Virus record (IMG/VR): IMGVR_UViG_3300040808_000776
Span: 1 to 36,240 of that record
Length of the DNA stretch: 36,240 nt
Source: a virus
Direction: 5' to 3' (one strand)
Shown: piece after piece, positions 7,764-29,610 of the stretch
Layout of the letters: the number at the start of each line of letters is the position of its first letter
How positions within the stretch are numbered: the first letter of the stretch is position 1
The notes under the pieces: model-generated
Seen by the model: only the letters and a program-made list of their open reading frames with translations
Database searches by the model: none
Told to the model about the DNA's origin: nothing
Position numbers and translations under genes: made by a program

Positions 7764-10700
7764 TCATCGAATTCCTAGGATGTTACGGATACGTTGTGAC
7801 CACTCGCGCTCAGCTTGAGGGGTCCAGGGTAGATCGTGTGGCATTGGGATATCAACTGCAAGCCCGCCATCAGGAGAAGCAGACTTATAATGGTAGCTGG
7901 TGGCAGAGTGCTCCCCATCTTCCACTGAGCCAACTTTAATCCCTTGAGCTTCAAGCATAGCGATAGCTTGATCACGCTGCGGTGTAGTGGCAAAGGCGAT
8001 GTGCTCATGGTAGTTTACTCCACCATGATCATCGCGGAACCCACCATGGGAGCGATCACCAGTCAAATACTCAATTACTTGTAAATTCTGCTTGCCACCC
8101 ATAGCCTGTTGGTCATGTGGGTTGCTAGTTTTACCAGTCCTATTCAGATAGTCATTGACTACCTTGCGAGCCTTGGACATGTGCCGCTGGTACGACTTGT
8201 TATTGTAGGCTCCCCAGGCACCAAGGCCTTGGCTATCAAGGATCGACTTAGCTGCACGGACATTGTTGCCGAGATCATAGAGATCCTCGTTGCTCTGCAG
8301 TCCAAACTGACGTAGACGCTGTGGTCCCATACCACCGATCATGTTGATCTGGAAGGCACCATAGCTTAGGTCTCCTGTGTCTGGGTTGTCATTGAGAGCC
8401 CTGGGACTACCCATACCTTCTCCCATGGCAATGGCCAGCATTTGCACCAGCTTGTCCTCTGGTACTCCTGCAGCAACCATCTGACTCACAACGTGCTCAG
8501 GGTTGGTGGGATCAGTGGCACCTTGGGCTGCACCCATTTGGAGGTGCTGTGGATCAGGTCCCACTTGAAGCCGCTGGAGATCTCGCCTTGCGGCGGCCTT
8601 CTGTGCGGTTGTAGCGTTACGTGACTTCAGAACATTCCAGGTTGTAGGTGCCTGCTGCTTGACGATCTGAGCAAAGCGAGCATACTTCTCAGCAGCTGTA
8701 CCATAGTTGCTCAGCTTACCGAACTCCTTCTCGACACCCGCTGTGAACATCTGAGCACTCTCGTGGGTCATGCCCATGGAGCGAGCCCAGATTGCTGCTG
8801 TACCGTAGCTGAAGTCAGGGGAATCAGATCCAGGAGGATTCCACTTGAAGCTGCCAGAATCGCCAAGGAGGCGGATCTGTGCACGGATGATGCTGGGCAC
8901 TGTGCGGCCTGTAGCATCGGCCACAGCGAGGACTGAAGGGGGAATATAGTTGGGTTCCGTCTCCATCCGGTTGATCTCTGCTGCTGCCTGGGATCCACTC
9001 TCAAAGACGGCAATGCTGTCAACATCACCAGCCTTGATACCAAGCTTGCGCATCTGTAGGGAGCTCAGGTCACCAACGTAGTCAGTGTTATCCAGCTCAG
9101 GGATCTTACGCTGCTTGGCTGTGATCTGGTTCCACTCCAGCTCTACCTTGTCCTGACTACGCAGACCTTCAGCGGCGCCTGCAACGTTACCAGTGAGGTA
9201 GCGCTTAGGAGCTTCACCAGATAGGTGTGTCCTGGACCATTCGCTGAAGAGGTTGGGGATATCTGCAGCGTCTTCGGTGATGTCAATGTTTGGATTGGAC
9301 CGAAGGTAGTTGACGAAGTCTCGCATCGCTGCAGATTTGGCAAGCTTGAGACGCTCATCTGGGTTGATGAAGTTCTCTGCCTGTATCTCCGGTGTGAGCA
9401 CACGCTCGAGCTCGAGATCAATGTTCTCGAAGACAACGGCGTGCTTCTCCTTGATAGCCTTGCCGAAGTCAGCATACTTCATCAGGTCAGCACGCTGAGC
9501 CTCGGGGATGTTGGTATCAGCCAGAAGCTGCTCAGCCGTCTCTGCTGCATCCATGGGATCCATCAGCTCCAACTTGCCCTTGAGCTCCTTGAAGCGGTTC
9601 TGGGCTATCGTTGGGTTGTACAGCTTGGTCAGCATCTTACTGCGCAAGACAGCATTCTCTGGACCGGGGAACATCATCTCCACCTCGTCTCTAGCACCGG
9701 CTAGGCGCTCCTGAGCATCTTCATAGGTCATATTGCCGTTGACAATATCAGCTATGACAGAGTCTGTGAACTGGGTGGCTGTTGTGTCCTTCTGCTCCTG
9801 GTACTGCTTGTGAGCCTTCTCCTCGTAGGCTTCCAGCTTGGCATCCAGATACATCAGAGGTCTGGCCTGGCCCTGGAATAGGGTGCGCAGGTCTTGCTCT
9901 AGGGCTGTAGCTCTATCAAGCTGGTCAAAGGGTGTAGCCAGGATCTTGGAGGCACCTAGCTTGGCCAGCTGCATGGAGGCTTCAACTAGGTCACCACCAC
10001 GAGATGCTGTCATCTCACGGAGCTGCAGTCCTAGCTCTTCAACACGCTCGGTTGGGAGCATTCCTTCAAGGGAATCAAATGCACCGTAGGCATCGTTATC
10101 GGCCTTGTTCTCCAGTTGTTGCTTGTACTGCTGGGTGCGCTCCTGTGTGCCACGAGCACGGATTCCCATGTCAGCAGCATTAGCTTGACGATGGAAGTAC
10201 TTGTGGACTACAGCAGGGTTGATAGCTACAAGACCTTTCTCCTTGAAAAAGTCACGGCGAGCTTCGCGTAGGGCGTCAGCTTCGACGAGTGCAGGGTCAG
10301 CACCAGGCGGCATATTAGCCAGTGCTTCCACCACCTTGCGGTTAGCATAATCTGGATAGTCAGATGCTGCAGCTTGAGCCAGTCCCTCTTGGACCCCGTA
10401 TAGGTAGAACTTGTTGCTATTACGGATGTGGTTAGCATCGTTCTGAAGCCCCGCTTTTTCGAAGGCATCTGCGGTAGCCATAGTCCGCTCAAGGCCAGAG
10501 ACCTTGGCGTTGTTGATGGCTCCCATGTTGTCCAGAACATGCTGGAACTGGGTTGGGTCGGCCTGTGCGGCCATCATACCTTCAACTTGGAGGTTGTAGT
10601 TCTCCTCGTTGATGCGGTTGGCTTCAGCCTCCCAAAGGGATTTACTGAAGCTCAGTGCAGTCTTACCAAGTTCAGTCACAGCACGGACATCGTCCTGCTG

Positions 10701-11066
10701 CATCTGCATTTGCATGCGACCTACTTGGTCTTTATTCTGCAGCTCAACGTTAGCGTTGTTGATACGCTGTTCGTTAAGACGGCGAGCATTATCCAGCTTG
10801 GCCTGGCCACGTTGATCCTTGAGTCTGTTCTTCCACTCAGCTGCACGAGCTTGTTGCTCGAACATCAGCTGTTGGTTCGCCATTGTCTGGCGCTGGTTCT
10901 CAAGTGTATTCTGGTTGCTCAGCTCGTTGTTACGGTTGACCTGCTGCTGGACTGCTGCAGCATTCTCTTGGTAGTTGGAGTAGATCTTATTGACTGCTCC
11001 AGACATATCTACGGCACGGCCTTGCACACCGCCGCGCTTGGCCTGCCTGCCTCTGTACTGTGTCAT
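7764..11066 (-). CDS. Internal virion protein C-like (T7 gp15 position) with C-terminal lysozyme-like and M15-peptidase-like domains
   Basis: This 1100-residue protein is longer than T7 gp15 (about 750). Residues 1-840 are helical and Gln/Ala-rich, as expected of an internal core protein. Residues 858-977 look like a lytic transglycosylase: a probable catalytic Glu883 in AIAMGEGMGS, then LSYGAFQINMIGG, then GNNVRAAKSIL and GLGAWGAY. Residues 991-1100 form a second domain with NYHEHIAFA, then SYHYKSASPDGG and LAVDI, resembling the zinc peptidase-like domain at the end of many phage tail proteins; His1014, His1020, His1022, His1059 and Asp1072 are candidate ligands. Together they could cut both glycan and peptide bonds of the wall during DNA entry. 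The ATG overlaps the gp14-like stop by four bases. The domain assignments are from motif memory. Confidence 0.82.
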   Translation of the reverse strand: MTQYRGRQAKRGGVQGRAVDMSGAVNKIYSNYQENAAAVQQQVNRNNELSNQNTLENQRQTMANQQLMFEQQARAAEWKNRLKDQRGQAKLDNARRLNEQRINNANVELQNKDQVGRMQMQMQQDDVRAVTELGKTALSFSKSLWEAEANRINEENYNLQVEGMMAAQADPTQFQHVLDNMGAINNAKVSGLERTMATADAFEKAGLQNDANHIRNSNKFYLYGVQEGLAQAAASDYPDYANRKVVEALANMPPGADPALVEADALREARRDFFKEKGLVAINPAVVHKYFHRQANAADMGIRARGTQERTQQYKQQLENKADNDAYGAFDSLEGMLPTERVEELGLQLREMTASRGGDLVEASMQLAKLGASKILATPFDQLDRATALEQDLRTLFQGQARPLMYLDAKLEAYEEKAHKQYQEQKDTTATQFTDSVIADIVNGNMTYEDAQERLAGARDEVEMMFPGPENAVLRSKMLTKLYNPTIAQNRFKELKGKLELMDPMDAAETAEQLLADTNIPEAQRADLMKYADFGKAIKEKHAVVFENIDLELERVLTPEIQAENFINPDERLKLAKSAAMRDFVNYLRSNPNIDITEDAADIPNLFSEWSRTHLSGEAPKRYLTGNVAGAAEGLRSQDKVELEWNQITAKQRKIPELDNTDYVGDLSSLQMRKLGIKAGDVDSIAVFESGSQAAAEINRMETEPNYIPPSVLAVADATGRTVPSIIRAQIRLLGDSGSFKWNPPGSDSPDFSYGTAAIWARSMGMTHESAQMFTAGVEKEFGKLSNYGTAAEKYARFAQIVKQQAPTTWNVLKSRNATTAQKAAARRDLQRLQVGPDPQHLQMGAAQGATDPTNPEHVVSQMVAAGVPEDKLVQMLAIAMGEGMGSPRALNDNPDTGDLSYGAFQINMIGGMGPQRLRQFGLQSNEDLYDLGNNVRAAKSILDSQGLGAWGAYNNKSYQRHMSKARKVVNDYLNRTGKTSNPHDQQAMGGKQNLQVIEYLTGDRSHGGFRDDHGGVNYHEHIAFATTPQRDQAIAMLEAQGIKVGSVEDGEHSATSYHYKSASPDGGLAVDIPMPHDLPWTPQAEREWSQRIRNILGIR

Positions 11067-25682: not shown

Positions 25683-26094
25683 TGTGTTTGGTGAGGTATA
25701 CGATGGCTTTAGCGAGCCTGAACACTTCCTCGTTCAGTAGCCCGATGGAGGTGTTGCAGTTGCTGCATAGGTAGCCGCGTATCTTGTTGGTGGCGTGACA
25801 ATGATCTATGTGTAGCTTATCGGTTGCCTGGCAAATACCGCAGTAGGGCTCAGCGTTTAGTATTGCCCTATCCTCGTGGGTTAGATTGAAGCCATACTTG
25901 TGTTTGAAGTCTCTACAAGCCTGACACTCAGATGTGTGCCTCCATCTTTTTTCTCTGACAGACCACCTAGATGGGGCAGTCTCATACCCACAGTGCCTGC
26001 AGTTCAGGTACCTCTTAGTGGGTGTCTCCCCAATTTGCTCCGCTAACGACTTCGCACTCAAGAGCGATTCGGAAGTTGAATTTGGTTTGGACAT
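25663..26094 (-). CDS. Recombination endonuclease VII-like HNH nuclease
   Basis: This 143-residue protein has the endonuclease VII family core: CQACRDFKHKYGFNLT, a CGIC zinc pair, then DKLHIDHCHATNKIRGYLCS with the catalytic His/Asp, and a second zinc pair CSNCNTSIGLL. An extra N-terminal Cys pair (LNCRHCGYETAP) precedes it. T4 endonuclease VII resolves branched DNA; small relatives in T7-like phages, often inserted next to DNA polymerase genes, act as free-standing homing-type nucleases. The ATG at 26094 lies 80 bases inside the polymerase gene, so the true start could be later: in-frame TTG at about 26073, or a start nearer the polymerase stop. The overlap suggests recent insertion beside the polymerase end. 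Confidence 0.85.
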   Translation of the reverse strand: MSKPNSTSESLLSAKSLAEQIGETPTKRYLNCRHCGYETAPSRWSVREKRWRHTSECQACRDFKHKYGFNLTHEDRAILNAEPYCGICQATDKLHIDHCHATNKIRGYLCSNCNTSIGLLNEEVFRLAKAIVYLTKHNDPPTD

Positions 26095-27778
26095 CAGTCA
26101 TTGATTGGTGTAGGTACTTGGTGACATCTTCGAGATCCTTGGGGTCAACCGACAACTGCACCTCGTCATGTACGAAAGCCATGTGCTGGACATCCATACC
26201 CTTGAAGTATCCGTTCATGTTGACCACCCAGTTCTTGCAGATGACAGCTCCAGCGCTTTGCAGTAGGTAGTTGAGGGCAGCGTGTGGCTTCTTGATCCTG
26301 ATGATGCGGCCATCCAGGCCCTTGAGTTGTCCGCTCTCAGCCTTACTGGACACAGCGTCCATCAGTTCCTTGAAACCTGTAAGACCGTCCATAACAGCCT
26401 TTCGGATAGCCTTACCACGAGAGACAGCCTTGGCCTTACTAGCGCCTGCTGCCAGGCCCAGCTTGGCGTTACCGCCGCCGTAGATCATGCAGTAGGTTAC
26501 GGTCTTACCGTTCTTCCGATCGGTGCCGTAGATCTCTGCAAGCTTTGTGTGGATGTCTCCCTCAAGTAGTTCCTTGCCGAAAGCCCCGCCATCGTAAGGA
26601 GCCAGATAGTGAGCAAGGCAGCGTAACTCCAAGCCACTTGCATCACTGCCGACTTGAAGTCTTCCAGGTCCGGGATTAAAGAGCTCTCGGTATTCGTGTC
26701 CGCTTGGGACTTGTGCGAGGTTGGGTCGGTTGTGGGCATTGCGTCCTGTGGCAGTGTTTAAAATACACGAATGATGGAGCCGGTTATCACTTTCAACAAG
26801 CTTAAGCCAGCTGTTATCTCCCTCCGACAAAAGGCCCAGAAACTTCCGAAGCTCCATGATGCGGGCGAACTTGTCTGCATCTGGGTGACCAACAGCCCGT
26901 AACACGGTGTCGTCGATCTTTGCTTTGCCTGTTTCAGTAAGCTCTGTGAATGTGTGACCATGGAGGGTGGTGAAGATCCAAGCAATGTGATCACGAGAGC
27001 CAGGATTGAAGTCCTTGAGCTTCGTGAAAGGGCAACCAGCAACATAGCCCTGTCTCTTGTTATCCCTCTTCGGGGTGAACTCTGCGCCTTGTACGAAGAC
27101 GTATTTCGAAGTCATCTCGTCCGAGAGCTTCTCGATCTCCGTACGCAGCTTGTTATCCAGGCGCTGCGCAGCCTCAATGTCAAAAGGGTAGCCAGACTGC
27201 TCCTGCTCAGCCATGATGCGCTGGCATTCGTGCTCCAGCTGAATGGGATCAGCATAGAGCTTGACCTTGGGGCGGAACATCTGCACGAGCTTGGTCGTTA
27301 CACGTACGTCCTGCTCACAGTAGTCTTCCATCTCACGGCTGTACACCTGCCAGTCGCAGGTCTTACCGAACTCACCCTTGCGGAACTTGAGTCGGTATCC
27401 CCAGCTCTCCAGGCTGTGACGGCCATAGAGGTTAGGGGGCATGTCCCGTGGCTTGCTACCCAGGTCCCGGTCAAGGATGTCCGTGAAGAACAGGCGGGAC
27501 AGGATCAGGGTGTCGTAGATCTTAGCCTCGATCTCCTTGAAGTAGGGGTAGAGGCGTTGGATAGCCGGGATGTCGAAGTTGACGATGTTGTGGCCCCAGA
27601 TCTCATCGGCTTCCATCAGAAGCTCGTTGATACCTACGTTGATGTTCCGCTCTTTCGAGTCAGGCTCATCATTAAATCGATAGACCTCACCAGTCTCAAC
27701 GTCCTGAATAACCAGACAATGGATACGATCGAAAGTACGTACAAGGCCATTGGTCTCAATGTCAAAGGTTAGAATCAC
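26015..27778 (-). CDS. DNA polymerase, family A (T7 gp5-like)
   Basis: I place the start at GTG 27778 (587 residues), because it gives MILTFDIETNGL, with exonuclease Asp6 and Glu8 at the same place as T7 Asp5 and Glu7. The proofreading domain continues with HNIVNFD and YCEQDVRVTTKL. Polymerase motif A is SDASGLELR (Asp379), motif B is RKNGKTVTYCMIYGG (about 422-435) and motif C is FVHDEVQLSV (Asp538, Glu539). All catalytic residues are present. T7 gp5 has 704 residues. A clear shortening lies at about residues 225-265, the thumb loop that binds host thioredoxin in T7, although GYVAGCPFTKLKDFNPGSRD is still recognisable. The start overlaps the thioredoxin-like gene by 17 bases. Confidence 0.95.
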   Translation of the reverse strand: MILTFDIETNGLVRTFDRIHCLVIQDVETGEVYRFNDEPDSKERNINVGINELLMEADEIWGHNIVNFDIPAIQRLYPYFKEIEAKIYDTLILSRLFFTDILDRDLGSKPRDMPPNLYGRHSLESWGYRLKFRKGEFGKTCDWQVYSREMEDYCEQDVRVTTKLVQMFRPKVKLYADPIQLEHECQRIMAEQEQSGYPFDIEAAQRLDNKLRTEIEKLSDEMTSKYVFVQGAEFTPKRDNKRQGYVAGCPFTKLKDFNPGSRDHIAWIFTTLHGHTFTELTETGKAKIDDTVLRAVGHPDADKFARIMELRKFLGLLSEGDNSWLKLVESDNRLHHSCILNTATGRNAHNRPNLAQVPSGHEYRELFNPGPGRLQVGSDASGLELRCLAHYLAPYDGGAFGKELLEGDIHTKLAEIYGTDRKNGKTVTYCMIYGGGNAKLGLAAGASKAKAVSRGKAIRKAVMDGLTGFKELMDAVSSKAESGQLKGLDGRIIRIKKPHAALNYLLQSAGAVICKNWVVNMNGYFKGMDVQHMAFVHDEVQLSVDPKDLEDVTKYLHQSMTDVQTKFNFRIALECEVVSGANWGDTH

Positions 27779-28040
27779 AGTTGTACTCCAGATGGTGGAC
27801 GATTGAGATAAGCCTGTCTGCATTCAGGCAAGCAGTGCCCTCAAGGCGGAACACCTCTTGGTTGTACTTGTCTAAGAGCAGAATTGTTGGGAACTTGTGC
27901 ACCTCGTACGAGACGAGGATGGACTTGTGATACTGCGCCTCAAGCAGTGGTAGGTGTTGGTGGTAGTCGGTATCCTGCAGCACGTAGTTGCGGATACTTT
28001 TGAGAAGCTCACCCTCAGGGCTCTCATCTATGATGAGCAC
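27762..28040 (-). CDS. Thioredoxin-like protein lacking the active-site CxxC
   Basis: A longer ATG frame runs into the primase gene, so I place the start at GTG 28040, four bases after the primase stop. This gives 92 residues. The second half is thioredoxin-like: VSYEVHKFPTILLLDKYNQE, with the cis-proline loop (Phe-Pro-Thr), a beta hairpin and a final helix (NADRLISIVHHLEYN). The first half has a strand (MLIIDE) and a helix but no CGPC motif; the only cysteines are late (TACLN, and Cys near the end). It therefore cannot be a normal disulfide reductase. Its place immediately before the T7-like polymerase suggests a structural partner of that enzyme. The function is inferred, and the lack of a visible Shine-Dalgarno leaves the start slightly uncertain. 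Confidence 0.72.
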   Translation of the reverse strand: MLIIDESPEGELLKSIRNYVLQDTDYHQHLPLLEAQYHKSILVSYEVHKFPTILLLDKYNQEVFRLEGTACLNADRLISIVHHLEYNCDSNL

Positions 28041-28044
28041 TACG

Positions 28045-29610
28045 TTAGAAATCGGTAGTGTCGATAGATGGTAGTACCTCAGCAGCTTGCATTCTTCCTG
28101 TTTGTTTGTTGTAGATGAGTTCTCCTGCATCTCCTGTGGCTCCATTGAAACGGTTTTTGAGTACTCTGAGTCTTGCACAGTCTGCTCCGGTAGATACAGC
28201 CCGTTCCAGGCCGATGACAACATCTGAAAGCTGCGAGATTGAATGTGAACCTCGAAGCTGCGACATAGAGATCTGAGCCCCATCCTCATGGCCTCGATCA
28301 TCTCGACCCCTCCTAAGGTGAGAAATAAGGAACAAGCCAACACCAGTCTCCTCTACGAATGAGCGGAGCTTGGTCATAGTGACATCGATCATCTTGCGCT
28401 CATCATCATGGTAGGTACCAGACAATAAGATGCTGAGGTGATCGAGGATCAAGAACTGCACGCCCTTAGCTTTAACTAAGTAGCGCATATCGTTCAGGAT
28501 CACGTCAGGATCGATAGAGCCAAAGCCGTCTCGAAGATACAAATTCCCAGAACCAACGCTGAGATCAAAAGCGCGCTTAAAGTCTCGTTCATCTAGGGTG
28601 TTGTCGAGGTGTAGTGGTTTGTTGGCAACAACAGTCATCAGTCTGAGACCAGTACGTTGTACTGACTCTTCTAATGCGATGTAGCCGACCTTAAAGCCTT
28701 GAGCGATAAGATGCTGGGCGAGTTCCCCGCAAAGGGTGCTCTTACCAGCTCCGGTACCGGCTGTGATGGTGATAAGCTCCTTGAGCCTGATGCCACCAGT
28801 AACGGTATCGATAGCAGTCCAAGGCCAAGAGCAGTCCCTGCCAACCATTGGAGCCCTGAGAAGATCATAGATCTCAGCTCCTGATATGATTGACTTAGGG
28901 GTGTAGCTCTGGGCGTTCCAGATAGCTTGTCTGATCGCCTCACCGTCAACAGCTTGCAGCGCCTCTGATGCATCCTTGTATCCTCCAAGGCTAGCGATCT
29001 TAACCTTGTCTGGTGGGAATAATTGAGCGCACTCAAGTGTTGCAGCTTGTCCTGGTTCATCAGCGTCGAATAGAAGAACGATCTCCTCAAAGCCCATCAG
29101 CCAAGTTAGCTGATGCTCGAGATCCTTGCGGGCTCCCTTAGCTCCTGAGAAGATAGAGACTACTGGCCATTTGGGCATTGCCTGATAGACAGACAACGCA
29201 TCCATTTCGCCCTCAGTGATTACGACTCTCTTGCCGCCACCAAAGAGCTGTTGGCCGAATAGGCGCTTCTCAGCGTTCTTGCCCCGCCACTTGAAGTTCT
29301 TCTCTTGGTCTTTCTCCTTGTAGCCAACAACGCGGCCAGCTACATCGGTGTAAGGGAACCTTATGTGAGGCCCCTCGACCTTGACGTTGAACTTACGGCA
29401 GACTTCTTCGCTGATCTTGCGAGCACGCAATGCGCGATGCTCACCAAAGTAAAAAACAAGGCCCTCAGATGGGGCCTCGCTGTCTTCTGTGCTTGTCACA
29501 TGGTTACATGAGAAACAGTAGGTGTGGCCATCAGTGTATAGACTGTTGGCGTCTGAGCTACCGCAATTGTCACAAGGGATGTGACGTACGAACTCAGAGT
29601 CTGAGCTCAT
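28045..29610 (-). CDS. DNA primase-helicase (T7 gp4-like)
   Basis: This 521-residue protein has the full T7 gp4 layout. The zinc-binding primase domain uses Cys13, Cys16, Cys32 and Cys35 (PCDNCGSSD, YCFSC). The TOPRIM domain carries ITEGEMDALSVYQ at about 131-143 and LLFDADEPGQAA at 189-200. The DnaB-type helicase has Walker A AGTGAGKST (284-292), then LILDHLSIL (Walker B) and SHLRRGRDDRGHEDGAQISM. It unwinds DNA at the fork and makes primers for the polymerase. A strong GGAGG lies six bases before the ATG. The C-terminus (LPSIDTTDF) ends with acidic residues and Phe, as in T7 gp4, where this tail contacts the polymerase. Confidence 0.96.
   Translation of the reverse strand: MSSDSEFVRHIPCDNCGSSDANSLYTDGHTYCFSCNHVTSTEDSEAPSEGLVFYFGEHRALRARKISEEVCRKFNVKVEGPHIRFPYTDVAGRVVGYKEKDQEKNFKWRGKNAEKRLFGQQLFGGGKRVVITEGEMDALSVYQAMPKWPVVSIFSGAKGARKDLEHQLTWLMGFEEIVLLFDADEPGQAATLECAQLFPPDKVKIASLGGYKDASEALQAVDGEAIRQAIWNAQSYTPKSIISGAEIYDLLRAPMVGRDCSWPWTAIDTVTGGIRLKELITITAGTGAGKSTLCGELAQHLIAQGFKVGYIALEESVQRTGLRLMTVVANKPLHLDNTLDERDFKRAFDLSVGSGNLYLRDGFGSIDPDVILNDMRYLVKAKGVQFLILDHLSILLSGTYHDDERKMIDVTMTKLRSFVEETGVGLFLISHLRRGRDDRGHEDGAQISMSQLRGSHSISQLSDVVIGLERAVSTGADCARLRVLKNRFNGATGDAGELIYNKQTGRMQAAEVLPSIDTTDF

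Follow-up and report, generated by a model that had tools for sequence, protein, structure and literature searches.

The window considered here, i.e. the whole 36,240-bp stretch of IMG/VR virus record IMGVR_UViG_3300040808_000776, belongs to a T7-like cyanophage whose polymerase comes closest, within the phage collection, to that of S-CBP2 (60%). Its minus strand carries, in this order, the genes for the RNA polymerase, endonuclease I, the primase/helicase, a thioredoxin-like open reading frame (ORF), the DNA polymerase, endonuclease VII, a 5'-3' exonuclease, MazG, ThyX and a B12-dependent ribonucleotide reductase (RNR). The thioredoxin-like ORF between helicase and polymerase, which is the subject of this work, has the cis-Pro motif of thioredoxins (FPT) and lacks the CxxC redox centre; an earlier reading of the sequence, the original prediction, had described it as a cysteine-less thioredoxin that may be a dedicated partner of the polymerase. 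The features of this junction are as follows.

28045..29610, minus strand: T7-like primase/helicase, recognised by sequence, with a C-terminus ending in TTDF
28309..28314, minus strand: Shine-Dalgarno-like AGGAGG, 7 nt ahead of ATG 28301, which doubles as two Arg codons of the helicase SHLRR motif
27762..28301, minus strand: probable full gene of a 179-residue protein, made of an overprinted N-terminal part and a thioredoxin domain without CxxC (ATG 28301 behind AGGAGG, open frame, extended proteins of 179-190 residues in relatives)
28045..28301, minus strand: stretch probably read in two frames, as the helicase C-terminus and, in the +1 frame, as the N-terminal extension (frame, start signal, fourfold-site data)
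28056..28058, minus strand: position of the ATG start found in most CxPC relatives; the window reads CTA
27762..28040, minus strand: thioredoxin domain, equal to the 92-residue ORF of the original prediction, from GTG 28040 to the stop at 27762 (ORF and predicted fold)
28011..28022, minus strand: SPEG replacing the CxPC active site (family alignment)
27885..27893, minus strand: FPT, whose P corresponds to the cis proline of thioredoxins (in the family alignment this P is invariant and T exceeds 90%)
26015..27778, minus strand: T7-like family A DNA polymerase, 587 residues from GTG (by sequence; fold predicted for relative L118)
26972..27148, minus strand: polymerase thumb segment of 59 residues (101 in T7), with a remnant of the thioredoxin-binding loop (alignment)

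Taken alone, the 92-residue ORF gives weak, sub-threshold profile matches (Pfam Thioredoxin_2, E=0.029, below the cut-off), and the window protein reaches 15.8 bits where the curated profile cut-off is 27; Thioredoxin_2 is matched by 42/50 family members at E up to 0.1. The ORF is identified as a thioredoxin because its orthologues at the same place are CxPC thioredoxins. These are the clade A cyanopodovirus proteins Syn5 gp25 (CGPC), S-TIP28_27 (CKPC, annotated as a thioredoxin), S-CBP42_50 (CQPC) and P60 gp15 (CGPC), which are homologous to the window ORF and occupy the same helicase-polymerase place, but differ from it by the conservation of CxPC and by an ATG lying mostly 7-10 nt before the helicase end; many IMG/VR contigs also carry CxPC orthologues at this junction. 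AlphaFold2 predicts for the window protein a model whose strands and helices follow each other as in thioredoxins, with residues 81-179 forming a confident domain (block-mean predicted local distance difference test, pLDDT, 70-92; whole-model predicted template modelling score, pTM, 0.54). Among the 50 best Foldseek matches of this model, almost every title names a thioredoxin, a thioredoxin domain or a design (best E 8.5e-5), and VIA-align gives Z up to 9.2. In 50 family sequences, P138, assigned to the cis-Pro motif by sequence, is invariant and T139 exceeds 90%. On homology, synteny and predicted fold, we conclude that the ORF descends from a thioredoxin, and the original prediction is borne out both in its description of the ORF and in its expectation of a thioredoxin fold for the small protein.

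The search for this gene covered the helicase-polymerase interval of 186 loci that contain the end of the helicase and the start of the polymerase, chosen by polymerase or thioredoxin similarity from the best 80 matches of each list. A family member lies between the two genes in 104 of them (77 with CxPC, 27 without), but none in the remaining 82, so that the gene pair that was to be looked for in related cyanophages exists in a part of them. These loci include repeated contigs (for example L001/L009, L002/L008, L004/L015, L014/L191, L150/L174 and L153/L175) and repeated phages (L086/L177, L087/L096, L088/L132 and L090/L123). The two S-CBP2 records were counted as lacking CxPC (25 + 2 = 27), their CENC being located in the overlap, outside the thioredoxin domain, and where an iterated profile strayed into the helicase overlap, in the window clade, its matches were left unused.

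A passage of PMC9381782 states that clade A phages mostly carry a thioredoxin gene, probably the one studied here, and that clade B phages do not. In Syn5 and S-TIP28, one more small gene (Syn5 gp26) separates the thioredoxin from the polymerase (L087 3247-3498, L091 3251-3511). Furthermore, Syn5 gp25 matches T4-like cyanomyoviruses such as S-RIM2 and Syn9 (in the latter, its annotated putative thioredoxin), with 111 matching records; the CxPC form is therefore not confined to phages with T7-like polymerases, and this suggests an older role independent of them. No second thioredoxin was found in the window with the PF00085 profile. PF00462 and phrog_22 were applied to the window, the 44.6-kb contig of L150, S-CBP2, Syn5 and P60; both recovered the known gene of P60, phrog_22 that of Syn5 as well, and neither gave anything else. 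All three profiles missed the window protein itself, and PF00462 also missed the Syn5 thioredoxin, so that a further divergent copy could escape them.

The window protein has SPEG at the position of CxPC and keeps cysteines elsewhere, so that "cysteine-less" is to be understood as devoid of the active-site pair. By eye, the former active site reads HLPS in L150, DLIS in S-CBP2, SRRG in L006 and HHHL in L183. In a tree of 81 polymerase rows (quick IQ-TREE, with the Shimodaira-Hasegawa-like approximate likelihood ratio test, SH-aLRT, as its sole support), all the rows with an extended protein without CxPC form one clade (SH-aLRT 97) nested among CxPC rows; L013, which has other cysteines, CPTC, at the cis-Pro site, represents a separate loss. 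Downstream of the helicase stop, eight pairs without CxPC give a ratio of non-synonymous to synonymous substitution rates (dN/dS) of 0.03-0.24, two of these pairs being near saturation at synonymous sites. Purifying selection keeps the thioredoxin without its active-site pair and the gene is not decaying; the protein therefore works without redox chemistry. The earlier suggestion of a phage thioredoxin that has lost its active-site cysteines is thus supported, and the gene is kept within the replication gene cluster.

The second change concerns the start of the gene. In 76/77 CxPC loci an ATG lies at most 36 nt from the helicase end, mostly 7-10 nt before it, as in TAT GAC GAC TTC stop, which read one base on gives ATG ACG ACT TCT; in 18/27 loci without CxPC there is no such ATG. 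Among the non-redundant loci without CxPC, 14/15 have a +1 frame that stays open over the last 93-102 codons before the helicase stop (the exception, L013, has 6), against at most 69 codons in 66 CxPC loci and, in 67 gene-less loci, one case of 101 and one of 78 (loci with fewer than 450 helicase bases or with identical ends being left out of this count). At the helicase SHLR[RK] site, a Shine-Dalgarno sequence leading to an ATG or GTG with an open frame behind it is present in 14/14 loci without CxPC, from five lineages, and in 0/61 CxPC loci and 0/15 gene-less loci; the score needs the SHLR[RK] motif and applies to these 14, 61 and 15 loci, the motif being missing from 1, 5 and 52 others. 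This signal is situated within the helicase gene, some 85 codons in, and its +1 frame is open into the thioredoxin. When helicase codons are shuffled so as to keep the protein, the chance of such a long open frame is 0.0013-0.28 per genome, L013 apart, and 3e-7 when combined over one genome per lineage (2e-6 with L150 replacing S-CBP2).

In the case of the window, AGGAGG (28309-28314) precedes ATG 28301 by 7 nt, the frame is open to 27762 and the overlap with the helicase gene is 257 nt. Judging from the shared start signal and the open frame, initiation most likely occurs at 28301 and the product is probably a protein of 179 residues (27762-28301), extended proteins in the relatives having 179-190; a shorter form is possible. 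The extent of 27762-28040 given by the original prediction corresponds to a GTG and a stop that exist, but the upstream start is more likely. Upstream of the polymerase in two gene-less loci, L072 and L075, long +1 frames (101 and 78 codons) span the end of the helicase gene and lead to a small protein bearing a CxxC-type motif pair, and in L179-L181 the helicase tail reads EFGIV, the other junctions examined ending in F, mostly DF. The missing ATG had raised the suspicion of a frameshift at the helicase stop that would fuse helicase and thioredoxin; this was rejected, the extended members tested having their own upstream Shine-Dalgarno sequence and start. The idea of a basic extension replacing the basic loops of T7 was also rejected: the net charge, +6 to +16 in six lineages, is -2 in the window and +1 in L006, and a mean charge of +4.5 is obtained when the corresponding codons of 76 CxPC loci are translated in the +1 frame.

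The isolated phage S-CBP2 possesses an orthologue without CxPC, S-CBP2_0021 (AGK86727.1), whose extended form matches that of L150 at 58% over residues 1-186 of 190. It is annotated as an 81-residue hypothetical protein starting from an inner GTG; since the start codon appears to have moved into the helicase gene, this public annotation is probably truncated. T7 itself has an annotated gene, 4.2, that covers the helicase C-terminus in this +1 frame too, with a homologous start (offset -275, as in L150) and an end past the helicase stop. Its product, annotated as hypothetical, has 112 residues, no thioredoxin motif that we could see and, by eye, little similarity to the extension beyond the shared helicase codons. 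The overprinted half may be either an old 4.2-like frame to which the thioredoxin was joined or a new invention. In the part of the literature covered by our search, we recognised no report of a phage thioredoxin without CxxC beside a T7-like polymerase, nor of the overlap with the helicase.

In four independent pairs, 20/171 fourfold sites differ in the overlap against 150/607 upstream (p=0.0002). This drop is due to L150/L153 (0/50 against 50/186) and L182/L183 (7/38 against 69/168); it is not significant in L179/L181 (1/42 against 10/185) and is absent from the fourth pair, that of the window. These four were picked, after the numbers were known, from ten pooled pairs that share branches (p=6e-6). 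CxPC control pairs give 233/838 in the overlap and 879/3112 upstream; one of them, L016/L018, is also low in the overlap (2/31 against 50/158), and local recombination can therefore mimic the signal of constraint. Third positions account for a share of 0.52 of the overlap changes when CxPC is missing from the pair, and of 0.74 in CxPC pairs (pairs again sharing branches). Dual coding is fairly well supported in parts of the clade; in the window lineage, only the open frame and the start signal suggest it.

The model we propose combines these observations. The ancestor would be a CxPC thioredoxin encoded between helicase and polymerase in clade A cyanopodoviruses. One clade, including the window and the isolate S-CBP2, would have lost both active-site cysteines, and most of its members the old ATG at the helicase end as well. 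A new Shine-Dalgarno sequence with its ATG (or GTG), lying in the +1 frame some 85 codons within the helicase gene, would then most likely provide an overprinted N-terminal extension. In these marine cyanobacterial viruses, the lost active site and the probable new front half suggest a protein that works by binding and not by chemistry, and from the place of the gene together with the lost chemistry we infer a role in the phage replisome. The leading candidate for its partner would be the polymerase, by comparison with host thioredoxin on T7 gp5, and the second the helicase. To this model as a whole, i.e. a former thioredoxin without redox centre, with its start moved into the helicase gene and acting as a non-redox binding partner in the replisome, we give a rough probability of 0.45.

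Several observations weigh against it. L013 has lost CxPC without gaining an extension, and 9/27 loci without CxPC retain an ATG no further than 36 nt from where the helicase ends, from which a short form could be made. The chance of a long open frame reaches 0.28 in a single genome. In the AlphaFold2 model, the extension has pLDDT below 50 at residues 5-23 and 34-77, and across the lineages compared it shows no conserved charge. The window's own pair has no drop in synonymous change (12/41 in the overlap, 21/68 upstream), nor has a further comparison within its lineage (5/44 and 18/168), and deeper pairs show little or none (L177/L150, 15/35 and 92/164; L182/L179, 17/27 and 81/135). Between the window and L002, 10/84 residues of the extension have changed and 3/95 of the thioredoxin part. 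Finally, the single linked model of thioredoxin and polymerase, that of L118, reveals no contact between the two.

A special case of this model is the private processivity clamp of the original prediction, in which the protein would bind the shortened thumb loop and replace host thioredoxin. The window shares with T7 the thioredoxin fold and the adjoining T7-like polymerase, and according to an excerpt of PMC3997047 the redox activity is dispensable in T7; it differs in that its thioredoxin is encoded by the phage and its polymerase lacks 42 thumb residues, any binding being hypothetical here. The gene is fixed beside that of the polymerase in the loci having it, and the form without CxPC is under purifying selection. 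The two genes overlap as had been noted, but the polymerase more likely starts at GTG 27778 (587 residues, according to the starts of its relatives) than at ATG 27823, in which case the overlap is 17 nt. The thumb is indeed shorter than in T7 by about the 40 residues announced (59 against 101), but this segment has 59 residues in all 93 relatives aligned, and because its length is the same with and without the gene it is not the mark of a private partner. Moreover, SS120-1 (polymerase 57% identical) and the contig L014 have the polymerase without the thioredoxin gene, the helicase abutting directly; gene loss is probable there, and such related phages, which the original prediction had named as refuting evidence, count against a strict requirement for the protein.

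Neither the polymerase residues nor the structural model favour the clamp. Only 1/8 clade-specific polymerase residues lies in the thumb, a segment of 59/587 residues, and hence there is no concentration there. The linked AlphaFold2 reading of thioredoxin and polymerase from the CxPC relative L118 (pTM 0.69) yields separate confident domains, with block means of 93-97 for thioredoxin residues 11-90 and T7 polymerase as the best structural match of the polymerase; thumb-loop residues 404-425 and 428-431 are below pLDDT 50 and there is no sign of docking, a weak negative from one model for which the tool outputs neither coordinates nor inter-domain errors. A dedicated clamp docked on the shortened loop is thus left unsupported by these data, and we consider it rather unlikely, although the T7 precedent keeps it plausible. 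Thumb residue 252 (window 27023-27025) is T in 12/12 polymerases of the extended clade and C in 28/43 CxPC ones; a redox coupling to this residue was rejected as a simple rule, both L013, without CxPC, and the gene-less SS120-1 having C. The junctions of SS120-1 (L089 2523-2526) and L014 (3196-3199) lie inside an otherwise CxPC part of the tree. Two polymerase records deserve mention: the S-CBP42 frame is broken (L088 3495-5260), and in P-SSP7 (L095 4929-6694) the exonuclease and polymerase parts form two overlapping genes, in each case by sequencing error or programmed shift.

Alternatively, the main product would be the short form, in the window the 92 residues from GTG 28040, and the long frame in the helicase gene would be incidental or serve an extra form. 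A GTG right after the helicase stop is usable by re-initiation, near-end ATGs exist at the old place in L179-L181, 25 nt before the helicase end in L192 and 14 nt after it in L183-L187, and the overlap shows no constraint in the window clade. Such a form has no common start: besides the 18/27 loci without a near ATG, L006 has TTG one codon on, and L153 has TTA where L150 has TTG, with no usual start near. Codons just past the helicase stop differ only synonymously between L150 and L153, and the upstream signal is present in 14/14. We regard this explanation as unlikely.

Quite doubtful, in our opinion, is the most ambitious version of the model, in which the thioredoxin would have become a purely structural replisome subunit that lost its chemistry and its old start, had its front half overprinted on the helicase, and in its extended form bridges or clamps polymerase and helicase, thereby replacing the missing part of the T7 thumb loop.

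That the gene is a relic decaying after the loss of its cysteines, with open frames left over, would agree with the different active-site replacements of each lineage and with the rapid divergence of the domain's N-terminal half between the window and L006, but is very improbable in view of the dN/dS values, the lack of stops across long divergence and the start signal in all 14 extended members tested. A redox thioredoxin reducing the phage RNR, which the active site of the CxPC relatives, the nearby RNR genes (those of the window and of the annotated regions of S-CBP2, Syn5, P60 and S-TIP28) and the relatives in T4-like cyanomyoviruses could evoke, is hardly credible in the window's clade, where the active-site pair is gone, and is applicable to the CxPC relatives only.

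The head and tail genes of the window lie beyond the replication and nucleotide-metabolism cluster. Amid the virion genes stands an ORF of 1100 residues (7764-11066) with no PHROG match at E 0.001.

In conclusion, T7 polymerase with E. coli thioredoxin is the textbook example of a host redox protein recruited by a phage to serve a structural purpose. Phage thioredoxins encoded beside a T7-like polymerase, with the redox centre, without it, or absent altogether, offer a natural series in which the use of thioredoxin by these polymerases can be tested. The apparent shift of the start codon into the helicase gene makes of this family a traceable case of overprinting. If the overprinted subunit is real, the C-terminus of the helicase and a partner of the replisome would be evolving on shared nucleotides.

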